64,000 bases of DNA from Streptomyces sp. HUAS CB01 (GTDB taxonomy: Bacteria > Actinomycetota > Actinomycetes > Streptomycetales > Streptomycetaceae): contig NZ_CP129137.1 in assembly GCF_030406905.1 (NCBI RefSeq), forward strand, positions 2,173,001 through 2,237,000. The letters run 5' to 3'. The notes beneath the pieces were generated by a model that saw nothing but the letters and a program-made list of their open reading frames with translations, had not been told where the DNA came from and did not search any database. The first letter of the stretch is position 1. Each line of letters opens with the position of its first letter. Positions 3,371-59,336 of the stretch are shown in pieces. Position numbers and translations under genes: made by a program.

Positions 3371-3388
3371 CGAGGAAAAGCCACGTGG

Positions 3389-3426
3389 CGGCAGACGAGT
3401 CGGGCTGTACGCCGGGTTCTGTTCCG
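3389..3426 (-). ncRNA. rnpB: Displaced 3' end of RNase P RNA (rnpB); left attachment site
   Basis: On the minus strand this reads ACAGAACCCGGC followed by GTACAGCCCGACTCGTC, the conserved 3' terminus of bacterial type A RNase P RNA in its actinobacterial form (ACAGAACCCGG is universal; AGCCCGACTCG closes helix P1). The roughly 370 bases expected upstream are absent. Beyond about 3421 the sequence is unrelated and leads into the integrase gene. This is the pattern left when an element carrying a copy of a gene's 3' end integrates there: the intact gene is rebuilt at the far end and this stub remains. The far end is not in the window. Confidence 0.8.
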
Positions 3427-27643: not shown

Positions 27644-28329
27644 TGCCGAAGAATCGATTCCCTTCCTCCAGGGAGCGGAGGCACGGAGCCCCGTCCTCGG
27701 TTCTGCGCCGCGCCTCGATCGGCGGCATCGTCCTCGCTGTCCTGCTGGCCGTCGCCGGTCTGGTCGCGTACGTCACCCGTGCGGAGAGCCCGGCCGCGCC
27801 GAAGGCCACCCCCGCGCCGGCGTCCTCTTCGGCGTCGCCCTCCCCTGCCGCCACCGCGCACGCCGGGGTGGCGGTGGTCGCGCCGCCCAGGACGACGGAT
27901 CCGATCGAGTTCGCCAAGGCCGCCACCAAGGTCCTGTGGACGTACGACACCCGGTCCTTCTCGCAGGCCGAGCACATGGCCGGCCTCAAGCGGTGGATGA
28001 CCGACGAGAAGAAGTACGCCGACTGGAAGTCCGTCTTGGACCAGGTGCCCAGTCCGGTGCTGTGGTCGCGGATGCGCGATAACGGGCAGCACGCCGGCGC
28101 CACGGTCGGCGAGGGCCACTTCCCGCAGGCGTTCAAGACCGCCCTGGCCCAGGACCCCGGTGCGATCACGGAGGCGTACGTCTACGCCGTCACGGTCACC
28201 GGCAAGCAGTCCATCGCCTGGAAGGGCTCCGGTGCCGGAGCCGAGTCCCGCTCGACGACCCTCGCCGTCCAGTGCCGACCGGACCGCGACTGCGCCCTCG
28301 TCGGCGTCCTGCCGAACGTCGCGCCGTGA
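27643..28329 (+). CDS. VirB8/TcpC-like bitopic conjugation protein
   Basis: This 228-residue protein has one N-terminal transmembrane helix (about 27-47), an Ala/Pro/Ser linker (50-80) and an extracytoplasmic domain of about 140 residues. This is the architecture of VirB8/TcpC scaffold proteins that bridge membrane and wall. Sequence identity to a named family is not obvious, so the call rests on topology and position between the two-helix protein and the polytopic VirB6-like protein. Confidence 0.6.
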   Translation: MPKNRFPSSRERRHGAPSSVLRRASIGGIVLAVLLAVAGLVAYVTRAESPAAPKATPAPASSSASPSPAATAHAGVAVVAPPRTTDPIEFAKAATKVLWTYDTRSFSQAEHMAGLKRWMTDEKKYADWKSVLDQVPSPVLWSRMRDNGQHAGATVGEGHFPQAFKTALAQDPGAITEAYVYAVTVTGKQSIAWKGSGAGAESRSTTLAVQCRPDRDCALVGVLPNVAP

Positions 28330-28360
28330 TCGCCCTCAACCTGCGAAAGGAGGCACCCTC

Positions 28361-29731: not shown

Positions 29732-29741
29732 CCCGGAGCTG

Positions 29742-29776
29742 ACGGGGTGGGCCGAGGCCCGCCCGGCCCACCCCGT
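29742..29776 (+). terminator. Stem-loop with pyrimidine-rich tail inside the transfer operon
   Basis: ACGGGGTGGGCCG (29742-29754) pairs perfectly with CGGCCCACCCCGT (29764-29776) over a 9-base loop and is followed by CTTCCTCGTCTTCTTTC. It lies 10 bases after the VirB6-like gene and 44 bases before the next gene, so it may attenuate transcription into the ATPase genes. Confidence 0.7.
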
Positions 29777-29820
29777 CTTCCTCGTCTTCTTTCTCCCCAT
29801 GTTCCAAGGACGGCTTCGCC

Positions 29821-31290
29821 ATGCTCTCTGACGCTTCTCACCCCGACGGTCCGCCCACCGTCAAGTTCCCTCACCGCTCGCGGCGGGGCGTGCTGCTCGG
29901 TCTCTCGGCCCCTCAGCTGATCGTCGTCGCGACCTGCGGTCTGCTCCTGCTCGGGGTGCTGCTCACCTCCGGTGTGACCGGAACACTCCAGCTCGTACCG
30001 CTGTGGGCCGTCGTCCTCGCGGCAGTCTTCATCCGCCACCGCGGACGGGCGCTCGCCGACTGGGCGCCGATCGCGATCCGATACGCGCTCCGGCGCTTCC
30101 GGGGGCAGCTGGTCTGGCTCGCCCGGCCGTCCACCCGACCGCAGCGAGAGGGCCTGCTCCACCTGCCGGGCACGGCCGCGTCCCTGCGGGTGGTCTCCTC
30201 GCCGGACGGTCGCCTCGGCGCGGTGCACGATCCGCACCAGGCCACCCTCACCGCCGTGGTGAAGGTCTCCTCCCGCGCCTTCGCCCTGCTCGACCCCGCC
30301 ACCCAGACCGGCAACGTCTCCGGCTGGGGCCGCACCCTGGCCGCGCTCGCGCGCACCGGGCACATCGCCCGCGTCCAGGTCCTGGAGCGCACCGTCCCCG
30401 ACTCCGGCGACGCGCTGAACCGCTACTGGCACGAGCACGGCAACGCCCAGACCCCGCTTGCCGGTCCGATCTACGGCGACCTGCTGGCCGCTGCCGGCCC
30501 CGCCGCCGCGCCCCACGAGGCGTACGTCTCCCTCGCCCTCGATCTCAAGGCGGCCCGCCGCCTGATCAACCAGGCCGGCGGCGGGCTCACCGGAGCCTTC
30601 GCGGTCCTGTCCCAGCTCGCCTCCACCTTCGACCAGGCCGCCCGGACCTCCGGGCTCATGCCCGCGGGCTGGCTGCCCGCGCGCGAGATCGCCGCCGTGA
30701 TCCGCACCGCGTACGACCCCAAGGCGTCGGCCGCGCTCGACCGGTGGTCCGACTCGGGCCGTCCGCAGGCCGCCCCCGCTGCCGCCGGGCCGGTGGTCCT
30801 GGTCGAGAAGGCCGACCGTATCCAGACTGACTCGGCCTATCACGCCACGTTCTGGATCGAGAACTGGCCGCGCATCGAGACCAGCCCCGGCTTCCTGCAC
30901 CAGCTCCTGTTCACCGCCGGCGTGCGCCGCACCCTCTCGCTGACCTACGAGCCCAAGGGACTGGAGGCCGCCCTGAAGGACGTACAGCGCAAGAAGGCCA
31001 CCGTGATCGCCGACGCCGCCGAGCGGGCCCGCAAGGGCCAGGTCGACTCCGAGGAGGACTCGGTCGAGTACGCCGACATCAAGCAGCGCGAGCGCCAGCT
31101 CATCGCCGGGCACGCCGATGTCGCACTCACCGGCCTGCTCACCGTGAGCGCGGACACGAGCGAGGAACTAAACGCCGCCTGCGCCGCCGTCGAGACCGCG
31201 GCCGTCGCCGCCCTCGTCGACCTGCGTCTGCTGACCTGGCAGCAGGCCGAAGCCTTCACCAACGCCGCTCTGCCGCTCGCCCGCCTGTAG
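29821..31290 (+). CDS. SCO6880-family conjugation protein (PrgI/VirB3 plus VirB4 N-terminal-like)
   Basis: This 489-residue protein has two N-terminal transmembrane helices (about 28-48 and 52-70) of the PrgI/VirB3 type, followed by about 400 soluble residues resembling the N-terminal non-ATPase part of VirB4 (GLLHLPGTAASLRVV, RAFALLDPATQ). It matches the S. coelicolor SCO6880 family that is encoded next to the VirB4 ATPase in actinobacterial T4SS. It has no Walker motifs: the ATPase half is provided by the gene at 31810, giving a split VirB4. AAGGA lies 11-16 bases before the ATG. Confidence 0.8.
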   Translation: MLSDASHPDGPPTVKFPHRSRRGVLLGLSAPQLIVVATCGLLLLGVLLTSGVTGTLQLVPLWAVVLAAVFIRHRGRALADWAPIAIRYALRRFRGQLVWLARPSTRPQREGLLHLPGTAASLRVVSSPDGRLGAVHDPHQATLTAVVKVSSRAFALLDPATQTGNVSGWGRTLAALARTGHIARVQVLERTVPDSGDALNRYWHEHGNAQTPLAGPIYGDLLAAAGPAAAPHEAYVSLALDLKAARRLINQAGGGLTGAFAVLSQLASTFDQAARTSGLMPAGWLPAREIAAVIRTAYDPKASAALDRWSDSGRPQAAPAAAGPVVLVEKADRIQTDSAYHATFWIENWPRIETSPGFLHQLLFTAGVRRTLSLTYEPKGLEAALKDVQRKKATVIADAAERARKGQVDSEEDSVEYADIKQRERQLIAGHADVALTGLLTVSADTSEELNAACAAVETAAVAALVDLRLLTWQQAEAFTNAALPLARL

Positions 31291-31334: not shown

Positions 31335-31790
31335 ATGCCGACCGAGCCCCTGCCCGAACTGGCTCCGGACTTCGTCCCGTTCGCCACCGCTGCGCTCGAC
31401 TTCCACCGGGCCATCAACATGCCCGTCGCCCCAGTCGCCGCCAGCCGCACCGAACTGGACTCCCTGCACGCCCACCTGGTCGCCCTGTACGGGCTGCTGG
31501 ATGCGCACACCGCGCGGACCGCCCCGGTCGCCAGCGTCGAGGGCGACCACCTGAGGGCCTGCCGCATCCGGCTGTGGCAGGCAGCCGAGCACCTCCACGC
31601 CGCGTATCACGCGGCCCCGCAGCGACTCACCGGCCGCCTCCCCACGCGGGAGGCGTGCCGGGCCCGCCTTCCCGAGGGCGCCCCCGACCTCACCGTGTGC
31701 CAGCGCCACCTCGCCACCGCCGCCCGCGTCCGCCGTGACCACACCCCGGCCGACCTGCGCGACCCCTTCACCGGCCTCACCCGCCACTGA
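31335..31790 (+). CDS. Conserved hypothetical protein in T4SS operon
   Basis: This 151-residue, soluble, helical protein has no recognised domain. Cys and His residues are scattered (LRACRIRLWQAAEHLHAAYH, VCQRHL). It lies between the SCO6880-family gene and the VirB4-like ATPase gene and is probably co-translated with both. It resembles small proteins annotated as DUFs in Streptomyces conjugation operons. No function can be given. Confidence 0.6.
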   Translation: MPTEPLPELAPDFVPFATAALDFHRAINMPVAPVAASRTELDSLHAHLVALYGLLDAHTARTAPVASVEGDHLRACRIRLWQAAEHLHAAYHAAPQRLTGRLPTREACRARLPEGAPDLTVCQRHLATAARVRRDHTPADLRDPFTGLTRH

Positions 31791-31809
31791 CCACCGGAGC
31801 ACCACCGCC

Positions 31810-33315
31810 ATGCCCACCCGAACCACCCGCGCCAGCGCCAGCCAGCTGTTCGTCCCTCGCAAGACCGACCGCCGCACGGCCCGCGCCGCACGCGACCAGT
31901 TCGCCGCCGCCCGCGACAAGGCCCGCCACGCCGCCCGGCCCGAAGCCCGCCGTACCACGACCGGTATCGATCCCGAGCTGCGCGCCACCTACCCGGCCGC
32001 TGGCCGCCCCGGTCCCACCTCCGCCCGCGGCGGCCGTCTCAAGCTCCCCGCCCACCGGATGACCACAGCCACCGCCTCCGGTGCCTACCCCTTCCTCGCC
32101 GAGGGCGGCCTCGGCGCCCAGGGCATCTACGTGGGCCGTGACGTGCACGCGGAGGCCGCCTTCACCTACGACCCGTTCGCGCTCTACGGACGGCTCGACG
32201 GCTTCACCAATCCGAACATCCTGCTCGCCGGGGTCATCGGCATGGGCAAGTCCGCCCTGGCCAAGTCCCTCGCCGTACGCGCCGTGGCCTTCGGCTACCG
32301 CATCTACGTGCCCTGCGACCCCAAGGGCGAATGGACCGTGGTCGCCCAGGCGCTGGGCGGGCAGGCCATCGCACTCGGCCCGGGCCTTCCCGGCCGACTG
32401 AATCCACTGGACGCCCCCGCCCGGCCGTACGGCGTCAGCCAGGACGACTGGACCGGCGAGGTCCGCAAGCGACGCCTGCTTCTCCTCGGCTCCCTCGCGA
32501 AGACCGTTCTGCGGCGCGACTTGCACCCGATGGAGCACACCGCCCTGGACGTGGCACTCGACCAGGCAGTCGTACGCGCCGAAGCAGCCGGGACCACCCC
32601 GCTGCTCGGCGACATCGCGTACGTACTCGGCTCGCCCGAGCGGCTCGACGCAGCACTCGGTGACCTGTCCGGACGCCTCGGACGCGCGGCCGAGGACCTG
32701 GCCCACGCGCTGCGGCGCCTCGTGCACGGCGACCTGGCCGGCATGTTCGACGCGCCGAGCACCGTCGCGTTCGACCCGGCCGCGCCGATGCTCTCCATCG
32801 ACCTTTCCCGGCTCGGCGGCGCTGGCGACGACACCGCGCTCGTCCTGGCGATGACCTGCGCCTCCGCCTGGATGGAATCCGCGCTCGCCGACCCCACCGG
32901 GGGACGGCGCTGGGTGATCTACGACGAGGCATGGCGCGTGATGCGGCACGTCGCCCTGCTGGAACGCATGCAGAGCCAGTGGAAGCTCAGCCGAGGGCTC
33001 GGCATCGCCAACATGATGGTCATCCACCGCCTCAGCGACCTGCTCACCGCGGGCGACGCCGGCTCCCGGGGCCGCGCCCTCGCCGAGGGCCTGCTCACCG
33101 ACTGCTCCACCCGCATCATCTATCGCCAGGAAGCCGACCAACTCGGCTCCGCCGCCGCCCTGCTGGGCCTCACCGGCGTCGAGACCCAGGCCGTCTCCGC
33201 CCTCACCAAGGGGCGCGGCCTGTGGAAAGTCGCGGGCCGGTCGTTCATTACTCAACATCTGCTCCACCCGCACGAGCGCGAGCTGTTCGACACGGATGCC
33301 CGGATGCATACCTGA
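31810..33315 (+). CDS. VirB4/TraC-like conjugation ATPase
   Basis: This 501-residue RecA-fold ATPase powers T4SS assembly or substrate transfer. Walker A is GVIGMGKSALAKSL (about residue 140) and Walker B is WVIYDEAWRVM (about 370); an arginine-finger-type segment TDCSTRIIYRQEA follows. The N-terminal 100 residues are basic and Ala/Arg-rich. The ATG at 31810 was chosen because it follows the stop of the previous gene; an upstream in-frame start at 31735 lies inside that gene. Together with the SCO6880 protein it covers a full VirB4. Confidence 0.85.
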   Translation: MPTRTTRASASQLFVPRKTDRRTARAARDQFAAARDKARHAARPEARRTTTGIDPELRATYPAAGRPGPTSARGGRLKLPAHRMTTATASGAYPFLAEGGLGAQGIYVGRDVHAEAAFTYDPFALYGRLDGFTNPNILLAGVIGMGKSALAKSLAVRAVAFGYRIYVPCDPKGEWTVVAQALGGQAIALGPGLPGRLNPLDAPARPYGVSQDDWTGEVRKRRLLLLGSLAKTVLRRDLHPMEHTALDVALDQAVVRAEAAGTTPLLGDIAYVLGSPERLDAALGDLSGRLGRAAEDLAHALRRLVHGDLAGMFDAPSTVAFDPAAPMLSIDLSRLGGAGDDTALVLAMTCASAWMESALADPTGGRRWVIYDEAWRVMRHVALLERMQSQWKLSRGLGIANMMVIHRLSDLLTAGDAGSRGRALAEGLLTDCSTRIIYRQEADQLGSAAALLGLTGVETQAVSALTKGRGLWKVAGRSFITQHLLHPHERELFDTDARMHT

Positions 33316-38112: not shown

Positions 38113-39906
38113 TTGTCTCCTGCACGCACCAGCACACCCTCGACCACCACCGGCACCGACTTCCTGCTGTACCTGATGCTGTCCGTCGCCGGCCTCGGCA
38201 TGGGGGCCGGGACGCTGGCCTGGTTGTTCGGCAACACCGCCAACACCCTCACCAGGTCCGGCCCCTGGGCCCCGTACGAACCCACCGACGCGCTGCTCCA
38301 GCCCCACGAGGTCTGGCCGCACCTTTCGCAGGCCGTCCTCGTCGGCGCCTGCTATGTCCTGCCCGCACTCGTACTCCTGGCCGCCGCGCTGCTCGGCGCG
38401 AAGGTGTGGCTGCGGCTACGCGGCAACCCCAAGGGACTGGCCGACCAACGCGATCTCGCCGACCTGATGCCCAAGAAGATCGCGGTCAAGGCCATCGATC
38501 TCCGCCCGAGTCTCAAGGGCACCAAGCCCAAGGACGTCGTACCCGACGACCGCGGTGTTCTGCTCGGCACGCTCGCGCCCGGCGCGCGCGAGGTCCGCTC
38601 CTCGTGGGAGGATGTGATCCTGGCGATCATGGCGCCCCGGTCCGGTAAGACCTCCGGTCTGGCGATCCCGGCGATCCTGCGCGCGCCCGGACCGGTGCTG
38701 CTGACCTCCAACAAGGCTGCCCGCGACGCCTACACCGCCACGCTCGCTGCCCGCGCCGACGTCGGCACAGTCTGGACGCTCGATCCGCAGCAGATCGCCC
38801 ACGCGCCCCAGACGATGTGGTGGGACATCCTCGCCGACGCCCACGATCTCGCCGGGGCCCGTCGTCTGGCCGGGCACTTCGTGACCGCCTCCGTGGACGA
38901 GTCGAACGCGGGCGACTTCTGGTCCACCGCCGCCGCGAACACGCTCACCGCGCTGTTCCTCGCCGCTGCCCGCGACCGGCGGCCGATCACCGACGTCCTG
39001 GCCTGGCTCGCCTCACCGGCCGACCGCACCCCCATCGACCTGCTCCAGGACGCCGGACTCGACGGCGTCGCCGCCCAGCTCCAGGGCACCGTGGCCGGCG
39101 CCGTCGAGACCCGCGACGGCATCTTCGAGACCGCGCGGCAGTACGCAAGCTGCCTGCTCGACCCGGCCATCGCCGCCTGGGTCACGCCGCCCAGCGGCCT
39201 CGGCAAGGTCCGCGAGTTCAAGCCGGGGGCGTTTGCCACCAGCAAGGACACGCTGTTCCTGCTGTCCAAGGACGGCGGCGGCTCCGCCTCGGCGATCATC
39301 GCCGCCGCTGCCGACGCGGTGATGCGCGCCGCAGTCATCCAGGCCGAGCGTGACGGCGGGCGACTCGACGCCCCACTGCTCGCGATCCTCGACGAGGCCG
39401 CCAACGTGTGCAAGATCGCCGACCTGCCGGACCTGTACTCGCACCTCGGCTCCCGGGGCGTCATCCCGATCACGATCCTGCAGTCCTACCGCCAGGGGGT
39501 CCGGGTCTGGGGGGAGGCCGGGATGGATGCCCTGTGGTCCGCCGCGACAATCAAGCTCGTCGGCTCGGGCATCGACGACGCCGACTTCGCGGACAAGCTC
39601 AGCCGTCTGGTGGGCGACCACGACGTCCGTACGGTCTCGGTCTCCACCAGCGAGTCGGGCAAGTCCACATCGGTCTCCATGCGCCAGGAGCGCGTGCTGC
39701 CGGCCGACGCGATCCGCGCCCTACGCAAGGGCTCCGCGCTGCTGCTGGCCACTGGCATCCGCCCCGCGCTCCTCGACCTCAAGCCCTGGTACCGGGAGCC
39801 GAACGCCGACCGGCTCGGCGCCGCGTCCGCCCAGGAGACCGCGGCGATCACTGAGCGCGCGCTGGCCAAGAGCCTGCGCCGCGACGACTTCGGTCCGGCC
39901 GCATGA
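38113..39906 (+). CDS. VirD4/TraG-type conjugative coupling protein
   Basis: This 597-residue membrane ATPase brings the relaxase-DNA complex to the T4SS. Two N-terminal transmembrane helices (about 17-40 and 72-95) precede the soluble domain with Walker A MAPRSGKTSGLA (about 180), Walker B LLAILDEAAN (about 425) and an all-alpha region, followed by the C-terminal TraM-recognition-like end. The start is TTG: an in-frame stop 15 bases upstream leaves no earlier start, and there is no clear ribosome site. Its presence, with a relaxase, shows single-strand conjugation. Confidence 0.88.
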   Translation: MSPARTSTPSTTTGTDFLLYLMLSVAGLGMGAGTLAWLFGNTANTLTRSGPWAPYEPTDALLQPHEVWPHLSQAVLVGACYVLPALVLLAAALLGAKVWLRLRGNPKGLADQRDLADLMPKKIAVKAIDLRPSLKGTKPKDVVPDDRGVLLGTLAPGAREVRSSWEDVILAIMAPRSGKTSGLAIPAILRAPGPVLLTSNKAARDAYTATLAARADVGTVWTLDPQQIAHAPQTMWWDILADAHDLAGARRLAGHFVTASVDESNAGDFWSTAAANTLTALFLAAARDRRPITDVLAWLASPADRTPIDLLQDAGLDGVAAQLQGTVAGAVETRDGIFETARQYASCLLDPAIAAWVTPPSGLGKVREFKPGAFATSKDTLFLLSKDGGGSASAIIAAAADAVMRAAVIQAERDGGRLDAPLLAILDEAANVCKIADLPDLYSHLGSRGVIPITILQSYRQGVRVWGEAGMDALWSAATIKLVGSGIDDADFADKLSRLVGDHDVRTVSVSTSESGKSTSVSMRQERVLPADAIRALRKGSALLLATGIRPALLDLKPWYREPNADRLGAASAQETAAITERALAKSLRRDDFGPAA

Positions 39907-49092: not shown

Positions 49093-51675
49093 CTACACGT
49101 CGTCCTGCGCTTCGTCCGCCTCGGGGGTGATGTTGGGCTCGATGCTGGGGCCGCGGTATTCGGGGTGGGCGCGGTCCATGGCGCCGGCGACATGCAGCGG
49201 GAACGGGTGGCGAGTACGCGCATCCCAGGCCAGGGACTGGTGGCACAACTGTGCTGCAAGGGCAGCGAGTTGTTCCGGGTCCCGGCCTCCGGCGTGGGGG
49301 ACGGCAAGCTGCGTAGCCGTGAAACTGTGCCAGTCCTTGCGCTGGAGGGCCCAGTCGTCCTTGGGAAGGGTAAAGCGGGTGTAAACGCCGCCGATGCTGC
49401 CAGCTTGTCCGAAGCCCTCGTAGGTACGGGACGCCTGGGCGGTGTACCAGCTGGTAAGGCCAGTGCCGGTCGTGCGCCGGTAGAGGCGGTCTTGGGGCTT
49501 GGGTGGGCGTTTGGGGCTCTTGCGGGGGCTGGCGGTGTTCTCCACCGGGGTGGGCACTTCGCCGTAGGAGGTGTTGATGGAGATCACGGCGACGGACCGC
49601 GTGGGGGTGCGCAGGTCATCCCCCGGCAGCGACCCCCTGCCGAAGTGGACGTTTTGGAGACCGGGCCAGATGGTGCGGCAGGCTTCCGCGTCCACGAAGA
49701 TGATCAACGGGCGATCGGAGGGAAGGATCTTCAGAGCGGAATCAATGTGCTGGCGCGCCAGCAATGCGCCCTCTTCGTGGCGCGCGTGCCCCTCTCGGCC
49801 GATCGAGCCCCGGCCGAAGGCCGCTTCTGCTGCAGCCTGGGGCCGCCAGTCATGGGTGCTGTGGTCGTAAGACTCCATGCGCCACGGACGGTCGGGATCC
49901 TTGCTGGTGTGGAGCGCAGTAAGGACTTCGACCATTTGCGTGCGGTCGGCGGCGCCGGGCCGGCGGTTGCTGATGCGCTGCTGGCGTAGGTGGATACCGA
50001 CCAGGATGGGTTCGTCGGCCAGGTCGGTGACGTGGCGGAGACGATCGTCCACGCAGCCGAGCCGGAACATGAGATCCCGCAGGGCGTTGATCGCCTTGTA
50101 GTCCTTGGGAGGTTCGGTCTCGTCATCAGTTTCTGTTTCCGCCACGTCGTCGGGTTCGGGCGTCGTCTGGCGGGCCAAGAACTGGGAGACGATGTCGCGC
50201 TCGTACAGGGCACGGCGCAGGTCGCGTTTGTGATCGTGGCGGTGCTGACCCGCTTCGCGTTCGCGCTTGGTTGGCTTGGGGTTCCAGATGGTCTCGACCC
50301 AGGCGCCGTTCAGGGTGCCGTCCTCAAGTTGGTCCAGGAAGGCGAGTTCGTCGTGCCAGTCGACGCGGTCGGCGCGGTCGAGGGCGGGCAGGCGGTGGAA
50401 GCGGACGAAGAGCCGTTCGCTGAGGCGGTGGTCGGTGTGGTCGCTGCAGTCCAGCGGCTGGTTGGGGGTGTTCGTGTAGGGGGCTAGGGCCTCGGTCATC
50501 CTCCGGCGCGTCGTGCCGTCGCTGTAGAGGGCAATGATGCGAACGGCTTCGCTGCCGGTGGCGGCGAGGGCGTGGTCGAGATCGGCGCGAGCGATCGAGC
50601 CCTTGGCCGGACGGGTCAGCTCGATGGGGGTCGGCTCGAAGCCGACTTGGATGATCTTGGGGCGCTTGAAAGTCTCGTTGATGTGATCGGCGAGGATCTT
50701 GTTGAAGCGGGTTCCGACACCTTTGCCGAGGACGTGCGGCACGGGACCCGGAACGAGGGCGCGCATCTGGCCTCGGAGCGCGGCGAGATCGTCGTTGGCG
50801 GGCCAGGCGGTGAAGTCCATGCCGCAGGCATCGAGGACTTCGGCGGCGTAGTTGCGGGCGTAGGGCACCCACTGGCCGTCGCTGTTCTTGGTGTGGCCGA
50901 TCGGCATCCGCAGCAGCGTGTTCTTGTTTGTGCCGTGCTCGATGAAGGCGGTGCGGGTGCTGGCCCAGTGGGTGGCCAGGCGGCTGAACGTGGGCAGCAC
51001 GTGGAGGGCGAACAGGGGCTCGCCGGGCTGGGTGACGACACGGAAGTCCAGTTTGTGCAGGGCGTATCCGGTGCGCTTGGGCTTCAGGGTCGTCCTCTTC
51101 GTGACGGCGTCCCAGCTGATGAGGCTGCCCTGGGTGTCCATGCGCCAACGGATTCGGCGCATCCGGGGGCCGTCGGGGACGGGCAGGGAGGTGCGGGCCA
51201 GGCGCTGCGCGAAGTTCCAGGCCGCGACGCGGTAGAACCAGCCCGGGGCGTGCGGCGTGCCGTCCTCGGCACCGCGGACGTAAGAGGCCAGATTGGGGTG
51301 TTCGACTTCGGCGGCAGCCAGCAGGGGGGCGAGCGTGTTGGCGTCCTCGCCCTTGCGTACGCACCGCTCCCACTCGCTGACCGCAGTGGACAAGATCCAG
51401 GGGTCGAACGGCCGGGTGGTGACGGCGACGGCGGGCTGGGCAAATTCGTCGTCGACGGGCTCGTAGCTGTGCGGCATGAGAACGACAGGCTGGCCCGACA
51501 CCGCGCTGAGCGCGGAGGCCAGCCCGGCATACGGGGGGCGGCGCGGCTTGCCGTTCTTCGCGTCGCCGTAGCTGGGCAGGGAGCTCCATGCCTCCCCGAA
51601 CTCGCGATTCAGGGGGTAGAGCGTGATCTTCCCGAGCCCGCTGTACGGGAAGAGGAAGGCCAGGGTGCTGATCAT
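49093..51675 (-). CDS. PIWI-RE family protein (pPIWI_RE island)
   Basis: This 860-residue protein of the prokaryotic PIWI-RE family has an N-terminal region of the pPIWI_RE module type (FLFPYSGLGKITLYPLNREF), a middle region, and a C-terminal RNase H-fold PIWI domain: VGIHLRQQRISNRRP (about 560), FVDAEACRTIWPGLQN (about 655), SINTSYGEVP (about 700) and TSWYTAQASRTYEGFGQ (about 745). The family is named for conserved Arg and Glu residues and has been predicted to bind nucleic-acid guides or RNA-DNA hybrids in defence. The ATG overlaps the stop of the DinG-like helicase gene (ATGA). Whether it cleaves or only binds cannot be told from sequence. Confidence 0.8.
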   Translation of the reverse strand: MISTLAFLFPYSGLGKITLYPLNREFGEAWSSLPSYGDAKNGKPRRPPYAGLASALSAVSGQPVVLMPHSYEPVDDEFAQPAVAVTTRPFDPWILSTAVSEWERCVRKGEDANTLAPLLAAAEVEHPNLASYVRGAEDGTPHAPGWFYRVAAWNFAQRLARTSLPVPDGPRMRRIRWRMDTQGSLISWDAVTKRTTLKPKRTGYALHKLDFRVVTQPGEPLFALHVLPTFSRLATHWASTRTAFIEHGTNKNTLLRMPIGHTKNSDGQWVPYARNYAAEVLDACGMDFTAWPANDDLAALRGQMRALVPGPVPHVLGKGVGTRFNKILADHINETFKRPKIIQVGFEPTPIELTRPAKGSIARADLDHALAATGSEAVRIIALYSDGTTRRRMTEALAPYTNTPNQPLDCSDHTDHRLSERLFVRFHRLPALDRADRVDWHDELAFLDQLEDGTLNGAWVETIWNPKPTKREREAGQHRHDHKRDLRRALYERDIVSQFLARQTTPEPDDVAETETDDETEPPKDYKAINALRDLMFRLGCVDDRLRHVTDLADEPILVGIHLRQQRISNRRPGAADRTQMVEVLTALHTSKDPDRPWRMESYDHSTHDWRPQAAAEAAFGRGSIGREGHARHEEGALLARQHIDSALKILPSDRPLIIFVDAEACRTIWPGLQNVHFGRGSLPGDDLRTPTRSVAVISINTSYGEVPTPVENTASPRKSPKRPPKPQDRLYRRTTGTGLTSWYTAQASRTYEGFGQAGSIGGVYTRFTLPKDDWALQRKDWHSFTATQLAVPHAGGRDPEQLAALAAQLCHQSLAWDARTRHPFPLHVAGAMDRAHPEYRGPSIEPNITPEADEAQDDV

Positions 51676-54600
51676 CGGCTGGTCTCCCGGATGTGGTGAT
51701 CGGCGAAGCGGAAGAAGGCGTTCAAGGTGGTGCCGTAGTAGCGGCGCATGAGGGGCAACTCGTCGCTCCGGGCCCACTGGGTGCGCAGCTCGCGGATGAG
51801 GTAGGGCAGGTCGGAGTTGCCGCGTGTGTCCAGGAAGGCGGCGTCGACGAGTTTGATGCGGCCCGGTGTGCCTCCGCGCCGGGCGCGGCCGACGAGCTGG
51901 ATGAGGCTGATGATGAGCTCGGCGGCGATGGCTCTCTTGGCCCGGGGCGGCAGGGAGCGGAAGTAGCGTTCGCTGGTGATCAGCTTTTCGAAGTAGTGGC
52001 CGGCCACCACGCGGCGCCGCTCGAGCTCGGTCCAGGGCTCGCTGCTGGTCTCCTTCTCGTCCAGGGCGCGGGCACCGACGTGGGCGAGGAGTTCGTCAGG
52101 TTCGTCGACCAGCGGGACGGGGCGGATGGCGAGCCAGATGGAGCCGATCGCTGACTTGTTGGACTGCGGCGCCAGGATGTTCAGTCCGCGTTCGGCCCGG
52201 CCCAGCGGAGCAATCAGGATCCGGGCCTTGGGCAGCCGGGTGAACGATTCCAGCTGGTCGCCGGGGATCTCGTGCCAGAGCGGTTCGCCGGTCTCGTCAT
52301 GGCGAGCCATGGGCTCGTCATCCGGTCGGGGTCTGACGGCGACCGCGATGAGACCGGGTTCGGCTCCGGCGGCCAGCAGGCCGTCGCGCAGGTGCTGGCA
52401 GCTGTCGTAGGAGGTGGTGACGAGCAGGATCGAGTCCTGAACACGGCGCTTGCTGAGACCTCCGAGATCCTTCAGCTCGCCACGCAGCCTGGGCCACATG
52501 CGTCGGCCCAGAAGACGCGTGGCCTCGATCCGGTCCTTGCCCGTGATGCCAGAGATCCTCAGCATCTCTTCGCCCAGGCCGGGGAAGAGCTCGGCCTCGA
52601 TGCTCACCCCGTGATCGACGTCGTCGGGTACCCACCAGGTGGGGACTGCGTGCACATGGTGGCGGTGCGCACCGGGCGCGTACGCGGTGGCGGACAGGCC
52701 CAGCACGACACGCTTGTGGCCGCTGTGTGCCAGGGCGGTGATCTGGCCCAGGGTGGTGACGTACGTGTGCGGATCCCCGCCGAAGGCCGCCACGCTCAGC
52801 CGGGTGTCTTCCGGCACCCCGGTCCTGACGTCCTCGGTGAAGGCGAACATGAGCCGTCCCTGCGGACCGTGCGGGATGGCCCGCCACGCGCTGAAGGGCC
52901 CGAGCACATCGGCGATGTCCCGTGCCGCCTCGACGCCGGCCAGCTTGAGCTGCTGTGCATTGTGGACGAAGCGGTACAGCAGCAGCCGCAGCGGTTCGAG
53001 GAAGGCCCGGCGCAGCATCCGGTCCAGCACGTCAGCCCGGACCTGCTGATTGGGCACCCACGGGGCAAGCCGCTGCTCCAGCTGCTTGCGCACGGGGGAC
53101 AGGGATCCGGCGTCCGCGTCAGGGTCGATGACATCCCGCAGGAGCTCGGCGAACGGATGCAGGTGCTCGGGCAACGCGGTCATCTTGATCTTGCGCTCGT
53201 ACAGGGCGGCGAATAGACCACGCTCCGCCGTATCCGGCGAGAAGCCGCGCTCTTGCGTGGTCACCTGCTGGTCGTCGTTGGCGAACAGGGCACGCAGCTG
53301 CGTACTGATCCACCCGTCCCAGCGCTGCGGAATGATCCACCGTCGCTCCTGAGCCGGACGCCCCGACTTCTTGGGGCTGCGGCTCCTCTTCTTCGTTTCT
53401 TTGCGGTCGCTGGGGCCAAGAGCACCGTGGGCGAGGTGGCTGGTGTAGGTCTCGGCGAGCCAGCGGGTACGCATCAGCGTGTTACGCATGCTCTCGTCCA
53501 GGGCCGGGCGCACCCGTCCGAATGCCTGGATGAACTCACCGTCGAGCCTCAGCAGCGGGCGCTGGTCCTGGCGGTTGCCCCAGGCCAGAGTGAGTCCCCT
53601 GCCGGCCCGGCCCAGGACGAATGACTGGAAGGCGTCCACTTCGTCCAGAGCGGTGAGCTGGCAGCGCCGCATGATCAGTTCCTCCACCGTCATCCTCTCG
53701 ACGATGGCACCGGAGTCGACCTGGACCGGGATGTGCAGATGCCCCTGGTAAAAGTTCGCGTGCGTGGTGACGATGATCTGCGCGGTACAAGCCTGCCGGG
53801 CCAGACGGAACTTCCCACACACCGCACGGAACGGGCAGGCGCAGGTCCCCAGCCGCCGCGCCTTCGAGCCCCGGCCTGATTCCAGGGCGCCGACGGGCCG
53901 ATACGGGACCAGGGACATGCAGGCCTCATGACCGGGTACCCAAGCATCGACCTCGTCGTCGACGGTGGCCAGCGACGGCAGGGCACAGCCGTACCCGAGC
54001 CGGTCCTCCGCCCACTTGATGAAGGCCCGGTCCCTCGACTCCGCTGCCACTTGATCCAGGGCGACCATCATGCTGTTCGGCGACATCAGCGGCACAACCA
54101 GTCGCTCGGGATGCTCAACTCCACGCGAGCGCAGGTCCTTCTCGATGCCGTAGGCCATCTTCAGCGCCGCCATGGTGGTGGGAACGGCCAACCCCAGCGT
54201 GACGCCCTCCGCATGGGCCCAGGAGCCCAGGCTGCGCATCAGCACGCTCTTGCCGAACCCGGTCGGGGCCTGGAGCACCTGCAGATTCCCTGCCTCGACT
54301 CGCAGCAGTTCACCGAGCTCGACGTCGTCGCCGGTGCGCAGCTGAGCAAACAGCGGCTCGAGGGACTCGGTACGGAAAGACTCACCGGCTTGCTGGTCCA
54401 GCTCCCTGTTGAGAGCGAGGAACTCGTTCACCTTGAGGGCCAACTGCCCAGCCGCCGACGCGGTGCGCACCCTGACAGGCTCGGCCTCCGGTGCCGCATG
54501 CCGCTCCTCCAACGTGTAGTGGGCCTGAACGGCCCACGTGGAGTCGTGACCGGCAATCGGCACCCGCAGGGTGGTCACGTAGTCGCCGGGCTCGGCGTCG

Positions 54601-55034
54601 GGCAGCGCACCGGAGTTCTCGGCACGCAGCCGGTCGATCTCCTCCAGTAGCACGTCGGCCAGCTCCTCGGGCAGCATGCCGTGGCGGGCGGCGAGCACGT
54701 CATCGTCCTGCAGGACGTACTCACAGATCGCCCCCGTGGCCAGGAACCGCTCCGCGTCCGTACGCAGCGACTCCTCGTTACTCAGCCGGTTGGGGCGCTG
54801 GCGCAGCATGCGGCTGATTCGCCGCTGCTCGTCACCCGAGAGCTGCGGATACTCGGTCCACGCGTCGTACTGCCCCGTGAGCAGGTAGGACACGCGCTGT
54901 AGGTCGGTACCGGCGCTGCCGTCCCCCGTCCGCAGCGGAAAGTGCTGTTGCGCGAGTGCGCACGCGCAGGCGATGACCTTCGGCAGAATCCGCCGGTCCA
55001 GCTCGCTGTCCTTCTCCACCAGCTGTACTGTCAT
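51672..55034 (-). CDS. DinG/XPD-like helicase of the pPIWI_RE island
   Basis: In this 1120-residue protein the N-terminal 240 residues are specific to the island; Walker A APTGFGKSVLM is near 253. A cysteine cluster CACPFRAVC...RQAC (about 395-415) fits the Fe-S site of DinG/XPD helicases. The DEAH-type box is ALDEVDAF (about 460), and the C-terminal helicase half includes LLVTTSYDSCQHLRDGL and LIQLVGRARRGG (motif VI, QxxGRxxR). It is expected to unwind 5'-3' and to open R-loops or duplexes for the PIWI-RE protein. Both ends overlap neighbouring genes by ATGA, so the three proteins are made together. Confidence 0.85.
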   Translation of the reverse strand: MTVQLVEKDSELDRRILPKVIACACALAQQHFPLRTGDGSAGTDLQRVSYLLTGQYDAWTEYPQLSGDEQRRISRMLRQRPNRLSNEESLRTDAERFLATGAICEYVLQDDDVLAARHGMLPEELADVLLEEIDRLRAENSGALPDAEPGDYVTTLRVPIAGHDSTWAVQAHYTLEERHAAPEAEPVRVRTASAAGQLALKVNEFLALNRELDQQAGESFRTESLEPLFAQLRTGDDVELGELLRVEAGNLQVLQAPTGFGKSVLMRSLGSWAHAEGVTLGLAVPTTMAALKMAYGIEKDLRSRGVEHPERLVVPLMSPNSMMVALDQVAAESRDRAFIKWAEDRLGYGCALPSLATVDDEVDAWVPGHEACMSLVPYRPVGALESGRGSKARRLGTCACPFRAVCGKFRLARQACTAQIIVTTHANFYQGHLHIPVQVDSGAIVERMTVEELIMRRCQLTALDEVDAFQSFVLGRAGRGLTLAWGNRQDQRPLLRLDGEFIQAFGRVRPALDESMRNTLMRTRWLAETYTSHLAHGALGPSDRKETKKRSRSPKKSGRPAQERRWIIPQRWDGWISTQLRALFANDDQQVTTQERGFSPDTAERGLFAALYERKIKMTALPEHLHPFAELLRDVIDPDADAGSLSPVRKQLEQRLAPWVPNQQVRADVLDRMLRRAFLEPLRLLLYRFVHNAQQLKLAGVEAARDIADVLGPFSAWRAIPHGPQGRLMFAFTEDVRTGVPEDTRLSVAAFGGDPHTYVTTLGQITALAHSGHKRVVLGLSATAYAPGAHRHHVHAVPTWWVPDDVDHGVSIEAELFPGLGEEMLRISGITGKDRIEATRLLGRRMWPRLRGELKDLGGLSKRRVQDSILLVTTSYDSCQHLRDGLLAAGAEPGLIAVAVRPRPDDEPMARHDETGEPLWHEIPGDQLESFTRLPKARILIAPLGRAERGLNILAPQSNKSAIGSIWLAIRPVPLVDEPDELLAHVGARALDEKETSSEPWTELERRRVVAGHYFEKLITSERYFRSLPPRAKRAIAAELIISLIQLVGRARRGGTPGRIKLVDAAFLDTRGNSDLPYLIRELRTQWARSDELPLMRRYYGTTLNAFFRFADHHIRETSR

Positions 55035-56212
55035 CGCCGACCGGCCTTTCGCACCTCGGCCTTGGCCGCCTTGAGGACCTCGCTTACCAGCAGGACCGTC
55101 AGATTCGGCAGCTGTTCAGCCAGCTCGTCCCGCTGCGCCTCGCCCCGGTAGTCGGGAATGACGATGGTGCGTGCCGCTGGCGGCTTCCTGCGCAACTGGT
55201 CAGCCAGTGACACCGCGCACCCGTAGTCCTTTACGTCGATCCGCAGCTCCCAGCCTGTCGCAGGGACGCGGACCAGCAGGTCGTAGCGGTCCTTGCCCGG
55301 CCAGAGTTGAACCTCGACACCCCGCTCCCTGAGCGCGTCCAGCCTCTCGAAGAGGTAGATCTCGGACACCCCGGAGATGACGATGTGGCGCCACACCGCA
55401 GTCTCCACGCACATGCTGCGCTTCGGCCCTTCGCGGTGAAAGGACCGGGCCGCCGGTTGCCGGGGCACGCCGCCGTCGCGTCGCTGCAGCATCGGGCGCC
55501 CTTTGGCGGAGTCTGTGCGCACGAAGTACGCCGCGTTGTGCAGGGGGAAGCGGCAGCGCACCTGCTCACCGTCGACATGCATCGGCCACTGGCACACCGG
55601 ACACGGCCACCAGTACCTTCCTCGGAACACCTGATCGGCCGGGATTGGCACGTAGCGCACGGACTTACGCATGCCGACCGCCTGACTGAACAGCTCCGCC
55701 AGCTGCCGCTCTTCACCGGCGGGTTGCTTCACCACGAAATACCGGTGCGCGGTGTACTCCTTCTCGCTCGCCCCCTCGTTGATCTGCTGGAATGCCTCGC
55801 GCTCCACCAACTCGCCGTGCATCCACGCCCACGTGGGAAGCCAGCGGCGCGCCGGATCCACACCCCCGCTCAACAACTCGACGATGTCCTCGCAGCCCTC
55901 GGCGTACACGTCGTCGCTGAGCTCGCCGCCGTCGAGAACCGTCAGCGAGCCCATCGTGCTGTCGGCGAAGAGCTCGGGAGCGATCTGCGCGAGGGGACGA
56001 TGCAACGCCTCGATGAGCATGGTCGGCGTGTTCGGGCCCTGGCCCGGGCCACACACCGACATGACGACCCCGGTCATGCGGGCGATCTCCCGGCGGGCAG
56101 CCGGCTCCTCGTAGCGGCAGGTGTGCGCGTACCCGGCACGGACGGCCGCGCTGGTGAGCACCCGGCGGTGATACTGCAAAACGTCAGACGACAGCGTCAT
56201 CCGGCTCTCCAT
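55031..56212 (-). CDS. Restriction-endonuclease-like protein of the pPIWI_RE island
   Basis: This 393-residue protein has a helical N-terminal part (about 1-190, the Z-type region of the island), a zinc-ribbon-like site CPVCQWPMHVDG...RC (204-220) and a C-terminal PD-(D/E)XK nuclease domain: Asp311 (KDRYDLLVRV), Asp326 and Lys328 (RIDVKDYG), with acidic residues in the preceding helix. It should cut DNA. It is the first gene of the three-gene operon. The first ATG at 56212 has a poor site; the ATG at 56200 follows GGAGAG closely and may be the true start. Confidence 0.8.
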   Translation of the reverse strand: MESRMTLSSDVLQYHRRVLTSAAVRAGYAHTCRYEEPAARREIARMTGVVMSVCGPGQGPNTPTMLIEALHRPLAQIAPELFADSTMGSLTVLDGGELSDDVYAEGCEDIVELLSGGVDPARRWLPTWAWMHGELVEREAFQQINEGASEKEYTAHRYFVVKQPAGEERQLAELFSQAVGMRKSVRYVPIPADQVFRGRYWWPCPVCQWPMHVDGEQVRCRFPLHNAAYFVRTDSAKGRPMLQRRDGGVPRQPAARSFHREGPKRSMCVETAVWRHIVISGVSEIYLFERLDALRERGVEVQLWPGKDRYDLLVRVPATGWELRIDVKDYGCAVSLADQLRRKPPAARTIVIPDYRGEAQRDELAEQLPNLTVLLVSEVLKAAKAEVRKAGRR

Positions 56213-56234
56213 CTCACATCATTAAGTGACCACG

Positions 56235-56248
56235 ACAGAGCTCTCTGT
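56235..56248. promoter_or_regulatory. Short inverted repeat upstream of the pPIWI_RE operon
   Basis: ACAGAG (56235-56240) and CTCTGT (56243-56248) are inverted around CT, 23 bases before the operon's first ATG. They are placed where an operator could overlap the promoter. The rest of 56249-56486 shows no gene. Confidence 0.3.
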
Positions 56249-56486
56249 GATGACGGGATGATGCCAGCAGCCGCCGCTGCCTCAGCGGAGCCAGGACACG
56301 CCACATCAGGTGCTGACCTGCAACAACTGCGACGTGAGGGTGCATCCGGCGTAATTGGAATTCATCAGGATCGGTGAGCGACGATGCACCGAGTTGACGG
56401 TCGGCGCGACTCTGGCTGCATCACCATCCCCCGGTCAATGTCGCTGCCGGTCTCAGCCAGAGGGCATGGATGCCGCCGACCAGGAC

Positions 56487-56962: not shown

Positions 56963-58708
56963 TCAGCGCCGGGGGCCCGACCTGCGGGAGCTGTTCGTGT
57001 CGTTGCGAACCGTGGGCTCAGCTGCCTGCGGCTTCGAGGCTCGGGGCGGCGCCGGTGTCCGCTGGTGCGCTCGTGTGCGGGACAGGTCCGCTGTGGCGGG
57101 TAGCTTCCCGATGCGCCGCAGGCGCCAGACGAGTACGTCGGTGACATTGTCGGCGGTCTCCAACTCGCGCCATTCGATCGCCTGCTGGAGCAGTGCGTCG
57201 GGGTTGTGTCCGGCTCGTTCGGCTTGGGCAAGGGTGGCGGCGAGCGCGTCCCAGCCAGGCTCGTGCAGGACGTGGTCGGCCTGTCCGGGCAGTGCGGCTT
57301 CCATGGTGTGGGCGTAGCGGTCGCGTACGGGGGCGGGGAGTCGGCGTCCCTGTTCGCGCATCGCCTTCATGGGCGTGGCGGACGCGGTCTGGTAGGCGGC
57401 GCGCAGGTGCTGCGCGGCTTGTCGGGCGGCAGCGGCCTGCTGGGCGTGGCCGCGGGCGGAGTGCCAGTGGATGGCGGCGATCGTGACGAGGACCATCGTG
57501 GACAGGAGCATCGCGGTGGTGCCGCCGTCCTCGCCTTTGCCGAGGGCGTTGCCGGCCTGGACGATGCCGCGCGCGGCGGAGCGGAGGGCGCGGTGGTCGG
57601 CGTGCTCGGCGCGGGTGTGGGAGCGGGTGGCACGTTCGAAGGCGCGGGCGGCCTCAGCGAGTTCCTGGCGGGTGGAGGCCGGGGAGGTCTGGGCGACGGC
57701 GTCCAGTAGTTCACCAACGCCGATGAGCTGAGCGGCGCCTGCCGCGTCGTCGTCCCCGGCGAGTACGGTGACGGCCTGCTCGGCGACGTGGGTGGCGTCT
57801 CGGCGAGCACCGGCTGGGCGAGCGGCCCGTGGGGCGGGGCCCGTGACGGTCGTCGGCTCGTCCTCGGGCGGTCCGTCCGCAAGGCGCTGGCGAATCCTGG
57901 GGAGGGAGAGGTCGGGGGCGAGCCGGGAGCCGGGGAACCAAATAGGCTCGCCGTCACGGTTCCGGTCGCCGGGCAGGGCGACCTTGTATCCGAGGATGTC
58001 GCCGGAGGGGGCTACACGCTTTTCGAGGCGAAGGCCGGCTTCGGTGAGACGACGGAAGAACTCGTCCTCGTCGGCGGTGCCGGCCAGCGCCTGGCGGACC
58101 TGCTCACGCAGCGTTTCACGGGGCGGTTCGGTGCGGCCAGTACGCTCCGCCTTGGCGCGTTCGGCGCTGGTGGGGCGTTGGGCGGCGGTGCGGTCGCCTT
58201 CGTTGAGGATCTGCAGGCCCCACTCCTTTTCGATCTTGCGGCACTCGGCCTGGGCGCGGATGCCGTCCTGGTGCCGACGGGGGCTTCGTCCGTCTTCGCG
58301 TTTGAGCGTGGCGACGATGTGGATGTGGTCCTCGGCGTGGCGTACGGCGATCCAGCGGCACGCCTTGTCGTCGCCTTCCTCGGCGATGCCGGTGGCGTGG
58401 ACGATGCGGCGGGCGACCTCGGCCCATTCGGCGTCGGTGAGGTGCCGGTCGCCGGGGGCGGTGCGGACGGGGCAGTGCCATACGTGCTGGGCCGGGCGGC
58501 GGTTCTTCGGGAGGGCGAGGACGGGGAGGTCGAGCCGGTCAGTGAGCTGCTTGAGGGTGGCGTTCGGGTCCCGTCCGGGGTCGGGGGCCAGTTCCGGCAT
58601 CCAGGCGGCGACGAGGTGCGGGTCGGTGTGTTCGTCGCGGCGGCCGGGCCCGTAGAGGTAGGCGAGGAGTCCGTAGGTGCGACTGCCGGTGGAGATGTCC
58701 GGGACCAC
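56963..58708 (-). CDS. Relaxase/mobilization nuclease (MobA/VirD2-like)
   Basis: This 581-residue relaxase nicks oriT and pilots the strand. Candidate catalytic tyrosines lie at the N-terminus (TYGLLAYLYG, residues 11-20). The metal-binding histidine motif is HIHIVATLKREDG (about 132-144), preceded by HVWHCPVR. The C-terminal half is helical, with one hydrophobic stretch (about 398-415, AMLLSTMVLVTIAAIHW) and a basic end SSRRSGPRR, suitable as a secretion signal. The GTG start lies 4 bases after the mobC stop. Together with MobC and the VirD4-type protein it makes the element self-transmissible. Confidence 0.88.
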   Translation of the reverse strand: MVPDISTGSRTYGLLAYLYGPGRRDEHTDPHLVAAWMPELAPDPGRDPNATLKQLTDRLDLPVLALPKNRRPAQHVWHCPVRTAPGDRHLTDAEWAEVARRIVHATGIAEEGDDKACRWIAVRHAEDHIHIVATLKREDGRSPRRHQDGIRAQAECRKIEKEWGLQILNEGDRTAAQRPTSAERAKAERTGRTEPPRETLREQVRQALAGTADEDEFFRRLTEAGLRLEKRVAPSGDILGYKVALPGDRNRDGEPIWFPGSRLAPDLSLPRIRQRLADGPPEDEPTTVTGPAPRAARPAGARRDATHVAEQAVTVLAGDDDAAGAAQLIGVGELLDAVAQTSPASTRQELAEAARAFERATRSHTRAEHADHRALRSAARGIVQAGNALGKGEDGGTTAMLLSTMVLVTIAAIHWHSARGHAQQAAAARQAAQHLRAAYQTASATPMKAMREQGRRLPAPVRDRYAHTMEAALPGQADHVLHEPGWDALAATLAQAERAGHNPDALLQQAIEWRELETADNVTDVLVWRLRRIGKLPATADLSRTRAHQRTPAPPRASKPQAAEPTVRNDTNSSRRSGPRR

Positions 58709-58712
58709 GGTG

Positions 58713-59336
58713 TCAGCGCCTCGCCATCTCGATGGCGGCGGCCTCGACCCTGGCGGCGGCGCGCAGGACGCGGGCGACGGCGTCGTCGGCGTACTCGGCC
58801 TGGCCGCCGGAGTTGAGGACGCGGGCGACCTGGTTGAGGTTGTTGCCGGCGCGGGCGAGCTGGGCGCTGGCGGCCATCAGCTCCTCGACCCGTCCGCGCT
58901 GGTCCATCAGCCATGCCTTGGGACCGCCCTGGGCCTGCGCGACGGCGACCGCGGCGTCGGCGAGGAATCCGGCGGTCTTGAGGCCGACGGCTTCGGCGGC
59001 GCGCTTGACGACGTCGAGTTCGTCGCGGGTCAGGCGGACGCTGCGGACTTGGTCGCGGTGCACGCTCTGGCGCAGGCGGGGGCGCGTACGAGGCGCGGAG
59101 CGCGCGGCTCCTTCTCCCTCCGGCTGCGATCCGCCCTCGGTCGCAGCCTCAGAGTCCGGTGCCCCCTGGTGCCGGCCCTCCCCCGCCCCCTCGTGGGTGG
59201 GGGCATGCGCTTCCGAAACTCCTCCGCGGCCCGTGGCTGCGGAGGAGTTTCGGAAGCTACAGCTTGCTCGGCCTCGTGCCGGGCAGTGGTCTTCGCCCAG
59301 TTCAGGGGGTGTGCCGAGCGGATCGGGGAGCGTCAT
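58713..59336 (-). CDS. mobC: MobC-like relaxosome accessory protein
   Basis: In this 207-residue protein, residues 1-90 are low-complexity (and overlap a 19-bp inverted repeat in the DNA). Residues 95-130 form a ribbon-helix-helix DNA-binding unit (VRSVRLTRDELDVVKRAAEAVG). The C-terminal segment has the MobC signature ARAGNNLNQVARVLNSGG. MobC helps the relaxase open oriT. The ATG overlaps the upstream stop (ATGA). The unusually long N-terminus might be an annotation artefact if translation really begins near the RHH domain. Confidence 0.85.
   Translation of the reverse strand: MTLPDPLGTPPELGEDHCPARGRASCSFRNSSAATGRGGVSEAHAPTHEGAGEGRHQGAPDSEAATEGGSQPEGEGAARSAPRTRPRLRQSVHRDQVRSVRLTRDELDVVKRAAEAVGLKTAGFLADAAVAVAQAQGGPKAWLMDQRGRVEELMAASAQLARAGNNLNQVARVLNSGGQAEYADDAVARVLRAAARVEAAAIEMARR
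59209..59257. repeat. Perfect 19-bp inverted repeat, candidate oriT
   Basis: GCTTCCGAAACTCCTCCGC (59209-59227) is repeated inverted and perfect at 59239-59257 over an 11-base spacer. It lies in the 5' part of mobC, next to the relaxase gene, the usual place of oriT. It is the longest perfect inverted repeat noted in the window. A nick site could not be identified. Confidence 0.5.

Follow-up and report, generated by a model that had tools for sequence, protein, structure and literature searches.

A conjugative element of Streptomyces carries a pPIWI_RE three-gene island whose PIWI protein lacks the name-giving arginine and glutamate

Introduction

How may a pPIWI_RE island work if its PIWI protein has lost the two residues after which the family is named? 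This question is raised by an island of three genes at positions 49,093-56,212 (minus strand) of a 64,000-nucleotide stretch of Streptomyces sp. HUAS CB01 (NZ_CP129137.1, 2,173,001-2,237,000, on a contig of 8.07 Mb), which was analysed as a whole and is called the window below. The family is defined by an arginine and a glutamate (R/E), called absolutely conserved in the paper of 2013 that predicted these islands (PubMed Central (PMC) record PMC3702460; statements from this paper refer throughout to the sections consulted). An initial annotation of the window had described a complete pPIWI_RE island whose mechanism has been little tested, and the latter point agrees with the literature on the family found among the matches listed, which consists, apart from some reviews that mention PIWI-RE, of the prediction of 2013 and the biochemistry of PsPIWI-RE from Pseudomonas stutzeri (Huang et al., 2022; PMC10991935). 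The island is real, complete and of a known kind; what is new is a clade of PIWI proteins without the R/E pair, accompanied by intact helicase and nuclease sites.

Gene set and integrity of the island

The three open reading frames (ORFs) code for a restriction endonuclease-like (REase) protein, a DinG-like helicase and a pPIWI_RE protein, in this order (Table 1). Both junctions consist of 4-nt ATGA overlaps between stop and start codons (REase/helicase at 55,031-55,034, helicase/PIWI at 51,672-51,675), as expected for the ATGA-coupled operon initially proposed. The completeness of the set was likewise confirmed, all three genes being present in the stated order, and the identification of the products as a PIWI-RE protein, a DinG-like Fe-S helicase and a PD-(D/E)XK protein agrees with Pfam and PADLOC profiles and with sequence motifs. 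The pPIWI_RE models of Pfam, to which the initial annotation had pointed as a check, match the PIWI protein above their cut-offs (PF13032, 207.7 bits, cut-off 25; PF13111, 96.5 bits, cut-off 30.5; PF18157, 30.9 bits, cut-off 26.6), and the claim therefore stands. The X, MID and RNase H domains are all matched above curated cut-offs, and the predicted structure displays an Argonaute fold along the entire protein.

The listed PIWI ORF comprises 894 amino acids (aa) from a GTG at 51,777, yet the ATG at 51,675 (860 aa) is almost certainly the true start, because the closest full-length homologues (P0001-P0007) have lengths of 858-861 aa and their alignment begins at this residue. The REase gene may start at 56,200 (M5) instead of 56,212, the equivalent start being annotated in the plasmid relative L011. 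Upstream of the operon, the blastn match runs to 56,408 in L011 and L048 and to 56,327 in L045; the 28 bp adjoining the start at 56,212 are identical in four islands, whose upstream regions align well near the gene only. No known structured RNA was recognised beside the island in an Rfam scan of the window at gathering scores.

Of 66 loci examined (the window, five plasmid loci and 60 context loci), 64 contain the REase, helicase and PIWI genes, as detected with models built from the same loci; the two exceptions (L059 and L063) contain shortened PIWI ORFs. As the context loci were chosen by hand from the 140 PF13032 matches listed and are mostly near full length, this ratio speaks for near-complete proteins. 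The dN/dS value (ratio of nonsynonymous to synonymous substitution rates) of the PIWI gene is 0.11-0.17, similar to those of its two partners, and the clade of the window is under purifying selection. A degraded or chance set of ORFs is ruled out by the profile scores, the conserved sites and dN/dS.

Loss of the R/E pair in the PIWI protein

The window protein contains Ser699 in place of the name-giving Arg and Gln789 in place of the Glu. Both residues are missing throughout its clade of 42 members, a set with truncated rows and at least one duplicate (L045 and P0006 are apparently one record): the 41 members with a letter at the respective sites show Ser (19), Ala (16), Thr (3) or Cys (3) for Arg, and Gln (36), His (4) or Pro (1) for Glu, the lone Pro coming from P0040, whose end diverges. 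The other 64 aligned PIWI proteins have Arg in 57 and Leu in seven cases at the first site, and Glu in 57, Arg in five and Asp in two at the second. In the 11 far islands from plasmids, counted without the second protein of L114, Arg is present in 11/11 and Glu in 9/11 (one Asp, one gap). Among the relatives of a cyanobacterial PIWI (best 120 of 215 matches, aligned without L109, L111 and the second protein of L114), all 120 contain Arg and 119 Glu, with one gap. Among the sequences examined, both residues are therefore lost only in the clade of the window.

In a quick LG+G4 tree of 89 rows, in which long branches were flagged, this clade receives a Shimodaira-Hasegawa-like approximate likelihood ratio (SH-aLRT) support of 100 and is joined with the R/E-bearing sequences L046, L050, P0037 and P0038 with a support of 90. 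The tree omits 22 of the 40 P rows (among them P0012, P0035, P0039 and P0040), L059, L063 and the far islands L107, L109, L111 and L114. It upholds a common descent of the window protein with R/E-bearing pPIWI_RE members, and the loss of the pair should be regarded as derived, because the clade is joined with sequences that carry it. The single losses of either residue elsewhere argue against a strict requirement for a salt bridge, in agreement with the R639A and E718A variants of PsPIWI-RE, whose cleavage was unchanged (PMC10991935). The initial designation as a PIWI-RE protein thus holds as far as the family profile match is concerned, but the protein is not a standard member, as both eponymous residues are gone in the clade and the first expected catalytic Asp is a His.

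Another clade (L015, L056-L058 and L060) keeps the Arg and contains an Arg replacing the Glu of the pair.

Catalytic positions and MID domain

Column 562 presumably corresponds to D525 of PsPIWI-RE, judging by where the RNase H domain begins and by the spacing of the sites. The four sites are spaced by 85/29/79 residues in PsPIWI-RE, compared with 80-121/36-50/77-130 in the aligned rows, where L114 and its second protein are left out as misaligned at the end; the distance of 29 between D610 and R639 is shorter than in any aligned row. Column 562 contains His in 42/42 clade members and either His (37) or Trp (27) in the other 64 aligned proteins, while Trp, Tyr, Thr, Ser or Gly are found in the 11 far islands and Thr in the 120 relatives of the cyanobacterial protein. 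An Asp at this column, sought as a sign of catalytic relatives, was found in none of the sequences examined, which do not include PsPIWI-RE, and a scan of genome contigs with a PIWI protein from Cupriavidus returned no relative. The second Asp (column 662) is retained in the window protein and in 39/42 clade members.

Judging from the residue at the expected catalytic position, the window protein is probably unable to cut. A dead PIWI alone is not new, given that inactive versions were already expected in 2013, when catalytic residues were stated to be kept by a subset only (PMC3702460).

Five residues within the MID match (E461, D481, K483, Q498 and G540) are invariant in 106/106 PIWI proteins. 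Together with the full Argonaute fold, they suggest that a guide is anchored, although hybrid sensing and guide loading are not separated by these data. Q498 is presumably similar to the Gln found in the MID pocket of Argonautes, a likeness to which no evidential weight is given here.

Helicase and nuclease sites

No Pfam family matches the helicase above its cut-off, while the PADLOC model PprDinG yields 362 bits. With the AlphaFold2 model (predicted local distance difference test, pLDDT, 83.9) as query, Foldseek yielded 28 matches at E<=1e-3: the titles of 21 name DinG, CasDinG, XPD or DdmD, and the remaining seven belong to TFIIH/transcription or repair complexes, in which the matching chain is presumably XPD/Rad3. 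As judged from this model, the protein belongs to the DinG/CasDinG/XPD/DdmD group. The Walker A residues G261-K262, the DExD motif, the four cysteines of the Fe-S cluster and motif VI are intact in 64/64 islands, and they do not vary among 31 aligned sequences that include other phyla. The largely helical Z domain expected at the N-terminus is not matched by PF18155, but the model shows mostly helices between residues 11 and 140.

As indicated by sequence profiles and motifs, the REase protein contains all the parts known from pPIWI_RE islands, namely a Y domain with its conserved Arg, a zinc ribbon and the REase domain (PF18154, 73 bits, cut-off 26.1; PF18156, 38.5 bits, cut-off 26.7). The respective residues are R157 in the Y domain, C204/C207/C220/H225 in the zinc ribbon and E284/D311/D326-V-K328 in the nuclease motif. 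R157 and the three cysteines are present in 64/64 islands of the main set, and the E-D-D-K motif is intact in 56/64, changed to E-G-E-K in L091 and lost in seven; it is also intact in 11/11 further plasmid islands, 10 of which come from other phyla.

In one PIWI clade (L089, L093-L096, L098 and L099), Leu has replaced the PIWI Arg and the catalytic Asp/Lys of the REase are lost, while the helicase motifs are kept, leaving three-gene islands without a recognisable nuclease site.

Distribution and mobility

Matches to PF13032 occur in 111 of 392 Streptomyces genomes, including the one studied here, and in five of 296 genomes sampled from the phylum; these five belong to the same genus and include the genome itself. 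Relatives are recorded by name in other actinobacterial genera (Nocardiopsis, Actinoallomurus, Actinospica and Kitasatospora), and 15 of 72,556 plasmid records match the PIWI protein of the window, all of them named Streptomyces. In addition to the 66 loci, 11 further plasmid islands contain the genes in order by annotation, namely four from cyanobacteria, five from Pseudomonadota and one each from Bacteroidota and Streptomyces; in the Bacteroidota case (L113, Hymenobacter), the PIWI gene is apparently in pieces. Plasmids of Bradyrhizobium (L109), Microvirga (L111) and Azospirillum ramasamyi (L114) carry a divergent gene for a WYL-domain protein upstream of the island and a very long RNaseH-domain protein, which is either encoded by the third gene or follows it.

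The proposed location on a conjugative element is well founded, with an att-like repeat, a tyrosine recombinase, SCO6880, SCO6881, VirB4-like and VirD4 proteins, a relaxase and MobC in the window (Table 1). The two copies of a 38-bp repeat lie 95,148 bp apart, putting the probable size of the element near 95 kb, and the right copy falls into the 3' end of a full-length match to rnpB (RF00010, 285.8 bits). Both ends bear about 150 bp of sequence resembling that downstream of rnpB, and in the relative G023 the gene of the left flank and rnpB are about 2.2 kb apart, representing an unoccupied site. As judged from these sequences, the attachment site is the 3' end of rnpB, which codes for the RNA of RNase P. 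A literature search on this point listed a single match, a genome paper on Streptococcus suis. A phage origin is improbable in view of the conjugation genes and of the lack of any match to two PIWI queries in 50,697 phage records.

The island moves as a cassette of 7.3 kb, because L011, L045 and L048 have 7.2-7.3 kb of the island in common at 85-89% identity, while their immediate flanks differ.

Comparison with known systems

The island corresponds to the known pPIWI_RE three-gene islands (PMC3702460; PADLOC 'Ppr' models) in the gene order REase-DinG-PIWI, in overlapping genes and in the domains present (Y domain, zinc ribbon, PD-(D/E)XK, Fe-S helicase, X/MID/RNase H), and differs from them by the loss of both family-naming residues in its clade. 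The PIWI gene of P. stutzeri also overlaps the upstream dinG by 4 nt and is clustered with a nuclease gene. PsPIWI-RE contains D525/D610 and R639/E718, whereas in the window protein the inferred catalytic positions are occupied by His and Asp, and both R and E are missing. PsPIWI-RE cuts with RNA or DNA guides, and RNA/DNA hybrid pairs are the only ones cut (PMC10991935).

Two further systems combine an inactive Argonaute with a nuclease, here as described in the sections consulted of the respective papers. In DdmDE of Vibrio cholerae, an inactive long prokaryotic Argonaute (pAgo) recruits a helicase-nuclease, which leads to plasmid elimination (PMC12409362). The types of parts are the same as in the window (Argonaute, helicase and nuclease), but DdmD unites helicase and nuclease in one protein, whereas separate ORFs code for them here; unlike in DdmD, the nuclease bears a zinc ribbon and a Y domain and the helicase four conserved cysteines. 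In BPAN, an inactive long-B pAgo triggers a PD-(D/E)XK DNase (PMC10620215). BPAN thus shares with the window the nuclease type and the inactive Argonaute, the latter being predicted from sequence in our case. It is composed of two genes, for the long-B pAgo and the bAgaN nuclease, instead of three genes with a conserved helicase and a different nuclease architecture, and the sections consulted name no helicase partner. As for CasDinG of Type IV-A CRISPR systems, the proteins scanned revealed no gene for a Cas complex, the weak matches to Cas3 and typeIV_DinG fall on the helicase domains, and the presumed guide carrier in the window is Argonaute-like. Among the matches listed in the open-licence PMC literature, with most subscription papers and bioRxiv outside this scope, neither a report on an R/E-less clade nor a comparison of DdmDE with pPIWI_RE was found; the single paper there that contains both terms, 'DdmDE' and 'PIWI-RE', mentions each once, the former in a reference title only.

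Possible mode of action

It appears somewhat probable that the island is a mobile DNA-interference cassette, in which a non-cutting Argonaute-fold protein recognises, the helicase unwinds and a separate nuclease cuts. This reading builds on the gene set and order, the predicted folds, the intact or missing active-site residues, the purifying selection and the carriage by a conjugative element. The Argonaute-fold protein, itself unable to cut, would bind a short guide or an RNA-DNA hybrid and thereby mark the DNA of an invading plasmid, phage or rival element; the DinG-like Fe-S helicase would then be recruited, load on the displaced strand and unwind the marked DNA, and the cuts would be made by the separate PD-(D/E)XK protein. 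The binding of a guide or hybrid, such a complex, its choice of targets and the outcome are inferred; the division of labour would be that of DdmDE, with the nuclease as a polypeptide of its own. The exclusion of plasmids and phages, as suggested in the initial annotation, is plausible in view of the parts and the mobile context. In a bolder form, which is tentative and rather doubtful, the R/E-less and catalytically dead actinobacterial clade would represent a split DdmDE: an Argonaute sensor loaded with a guide would pass DNA on to two separate proteins, a Fe-S DinG helicase and a zinc-ribbon PD-(D/E)XK nuclease, and conjugative elements would carry the set to destroy competing replicons. 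If this is true, pPIWI_RE three-gene islands and DdmDE would be two layouts of one Argonaute-helicase-nuclease machine for DNA elimination, which would not require the name-giving R/E pair.

The invariant MID residues also bear on a restriction of R-loops without stored guides, as proposed by Burroughs and colleagues (PMC3702460), in which RNA-DNA hybrids on invaders undergoing active transcription or replication would be detected by the PIWI protein and unwound by DinG, leaving the exposed DNA to be cut by the REase. The confirmed DinG-like helicase and the limitation of PsPIWI-RE cleavage to RNA/DNA hybrid pairs (PMC10991935) fit this mode, but the 106/106 invariant MID residues and the full Argonaute fold point to guide anchoring, even if they leave hybrid sensing and guide loading unseparated, and it is regarded as unlikely. 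An abortive infection, in which a non-specific REase is set free once the dead PIWI has recognised its target and then degrades the DNA of the cell, has its precedent in BPAN, where an inactive long-B pAgo with a PD-(D/E)XK nuclease causes cell death when it senses a plasmid (PMC10620215, sections consulted); as no helicase partner is named there, while the helicase motifs are intact in 64/64 islands, this mode seems quite improbable for the window. A maintenance function for host or element, such as an aid to replication, conflict resolution or transfer instead of defence, would agree with the ciprofloxacin sensitivity and the cell-division phenotype of a PsPIWI-RE deletion (PMC10991935) and with the position of the island close to the relaxase, a homologue of which also lies near islands of other PIWI clades (L065, L066, L068 and L070). 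It is distinctly improbable in the light of the patchy occurrence within the genus, the transfer of the cassette between unrelated flanks and the intact nuclease site in most islands (56/64).

Returning to the interference cassette, the clade of the window represents a clean test case, as purifying selection acts on a PIWI protein that has neither the R/E pair nor the Asp expected for catalysis, next to intact helicase and nuclease sites, which separates a role of PIWI in recognition from catalysis. It also ties the prediction of 2013 to the solved DdmDE and CasDinG machines and makes the question of R-loops or guides directly testable.

Features of the window and further genes of the element

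Table 1. Positions of the island genes, their diagnostic residues and the mobility genes in the window.
Feature	Position	Strand	Basis or remark
attL-like 38-bp repeat, one mismatch to partner	3385..3422	.	partner at 98,533-98,570, beyond the window
Tyrosine recombinase (integrase), beside left repeat copy	3509..4762	-	PF00589, 42.6 bits (cut-off 27.1)
SCO6881 and SCO6880 family transfer proteins (two genes)	28160..31290	+	605 and 417 bits, above cut-offs
VirB4-like transfer ATPase	31735..33315	+	NF045971, 65.8 bits, below cut-off (325)
VirD4-type coupling protein	38113..39906	+	PF12696, 110 bits; PF02534, 65 bits
Gene 3, Argonaute-fold pPIWI_RE-derived protein	49093..51675	-	860 aa; Pfam
PIWI Gln789, in place of name-giving Glu	49309..49311	-	alignment
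PIWI Ser699, in place of name-giving Arg	49579..49581	-	alignment
PIWI His562, position expected for first catalytic Asp	49990..49992	-	alignment; in model strand 557-566
Gene 2, DinG-like Fe-S superfamily 2 helicase	51672..55034	-	1120 aa; PADLOC PprDinG and structure model
Helicase DExD motif D464-E465-V-D467 (Walker B)	53634..53645	-	64/64
Helicase Fe-S cluster cysteines C350, C372, C400, C406	53817..53987	-	each 64/64
Gene 1, REase protein (Y domain, zinc ribbon, PD-(D/E)XK nuclease)	55031..56212	-	393 aa; Pfam and motifs
REase active-site stretch E284 to K328	55229..55363	-	E-D-D-K motif
Upstream region common to relatives, probable promoter and leader	56213..56408	-	blastn and alignment
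Relaxase (MobA/VirD2-like), close upstream of island	56963..58708	-	PF03432, 29.6 bits (cut-off 24.6)
MobC/NikA-like accessory protein	58713..59336	-	PF05713 and PF21983, above cut-offs

The element carries a second defence-like cluster at 5,791-25,675 (minus strand), a mixed DISARM/Druantia-like set composed of a DrmD-like SNF2 helicase, a type IIG restriction-modification protein (980 bits), a DruE-like/MZB helicase of 2,201 aa and a UvrD helicase, together with a Ser/Thr kinase domain that forms residues 734-975 of the ORF at 22,460-25,675. Opposite the upstream part of this kinase ORF lies a DUF5655/NucS-C-like gene (23,702-24,652, plus strand; PADLOC candidate PDC-S18, 419 bits), whose DNA also matches near the pPIWI_RE matches of L008, L054, L074, L082, L083, L104 and L092 (L044 being the same place as L092). 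At the right end of the element, at 6,507-14,522 (minus strand) of L004, a gene for an Hsp70-like protein with a weak match to NYN RNases, below the cut-off, is followed by two ORFs and by a large superfamily 1 helicase adjoining the right att copy; these genes possibly represent another conflict system.

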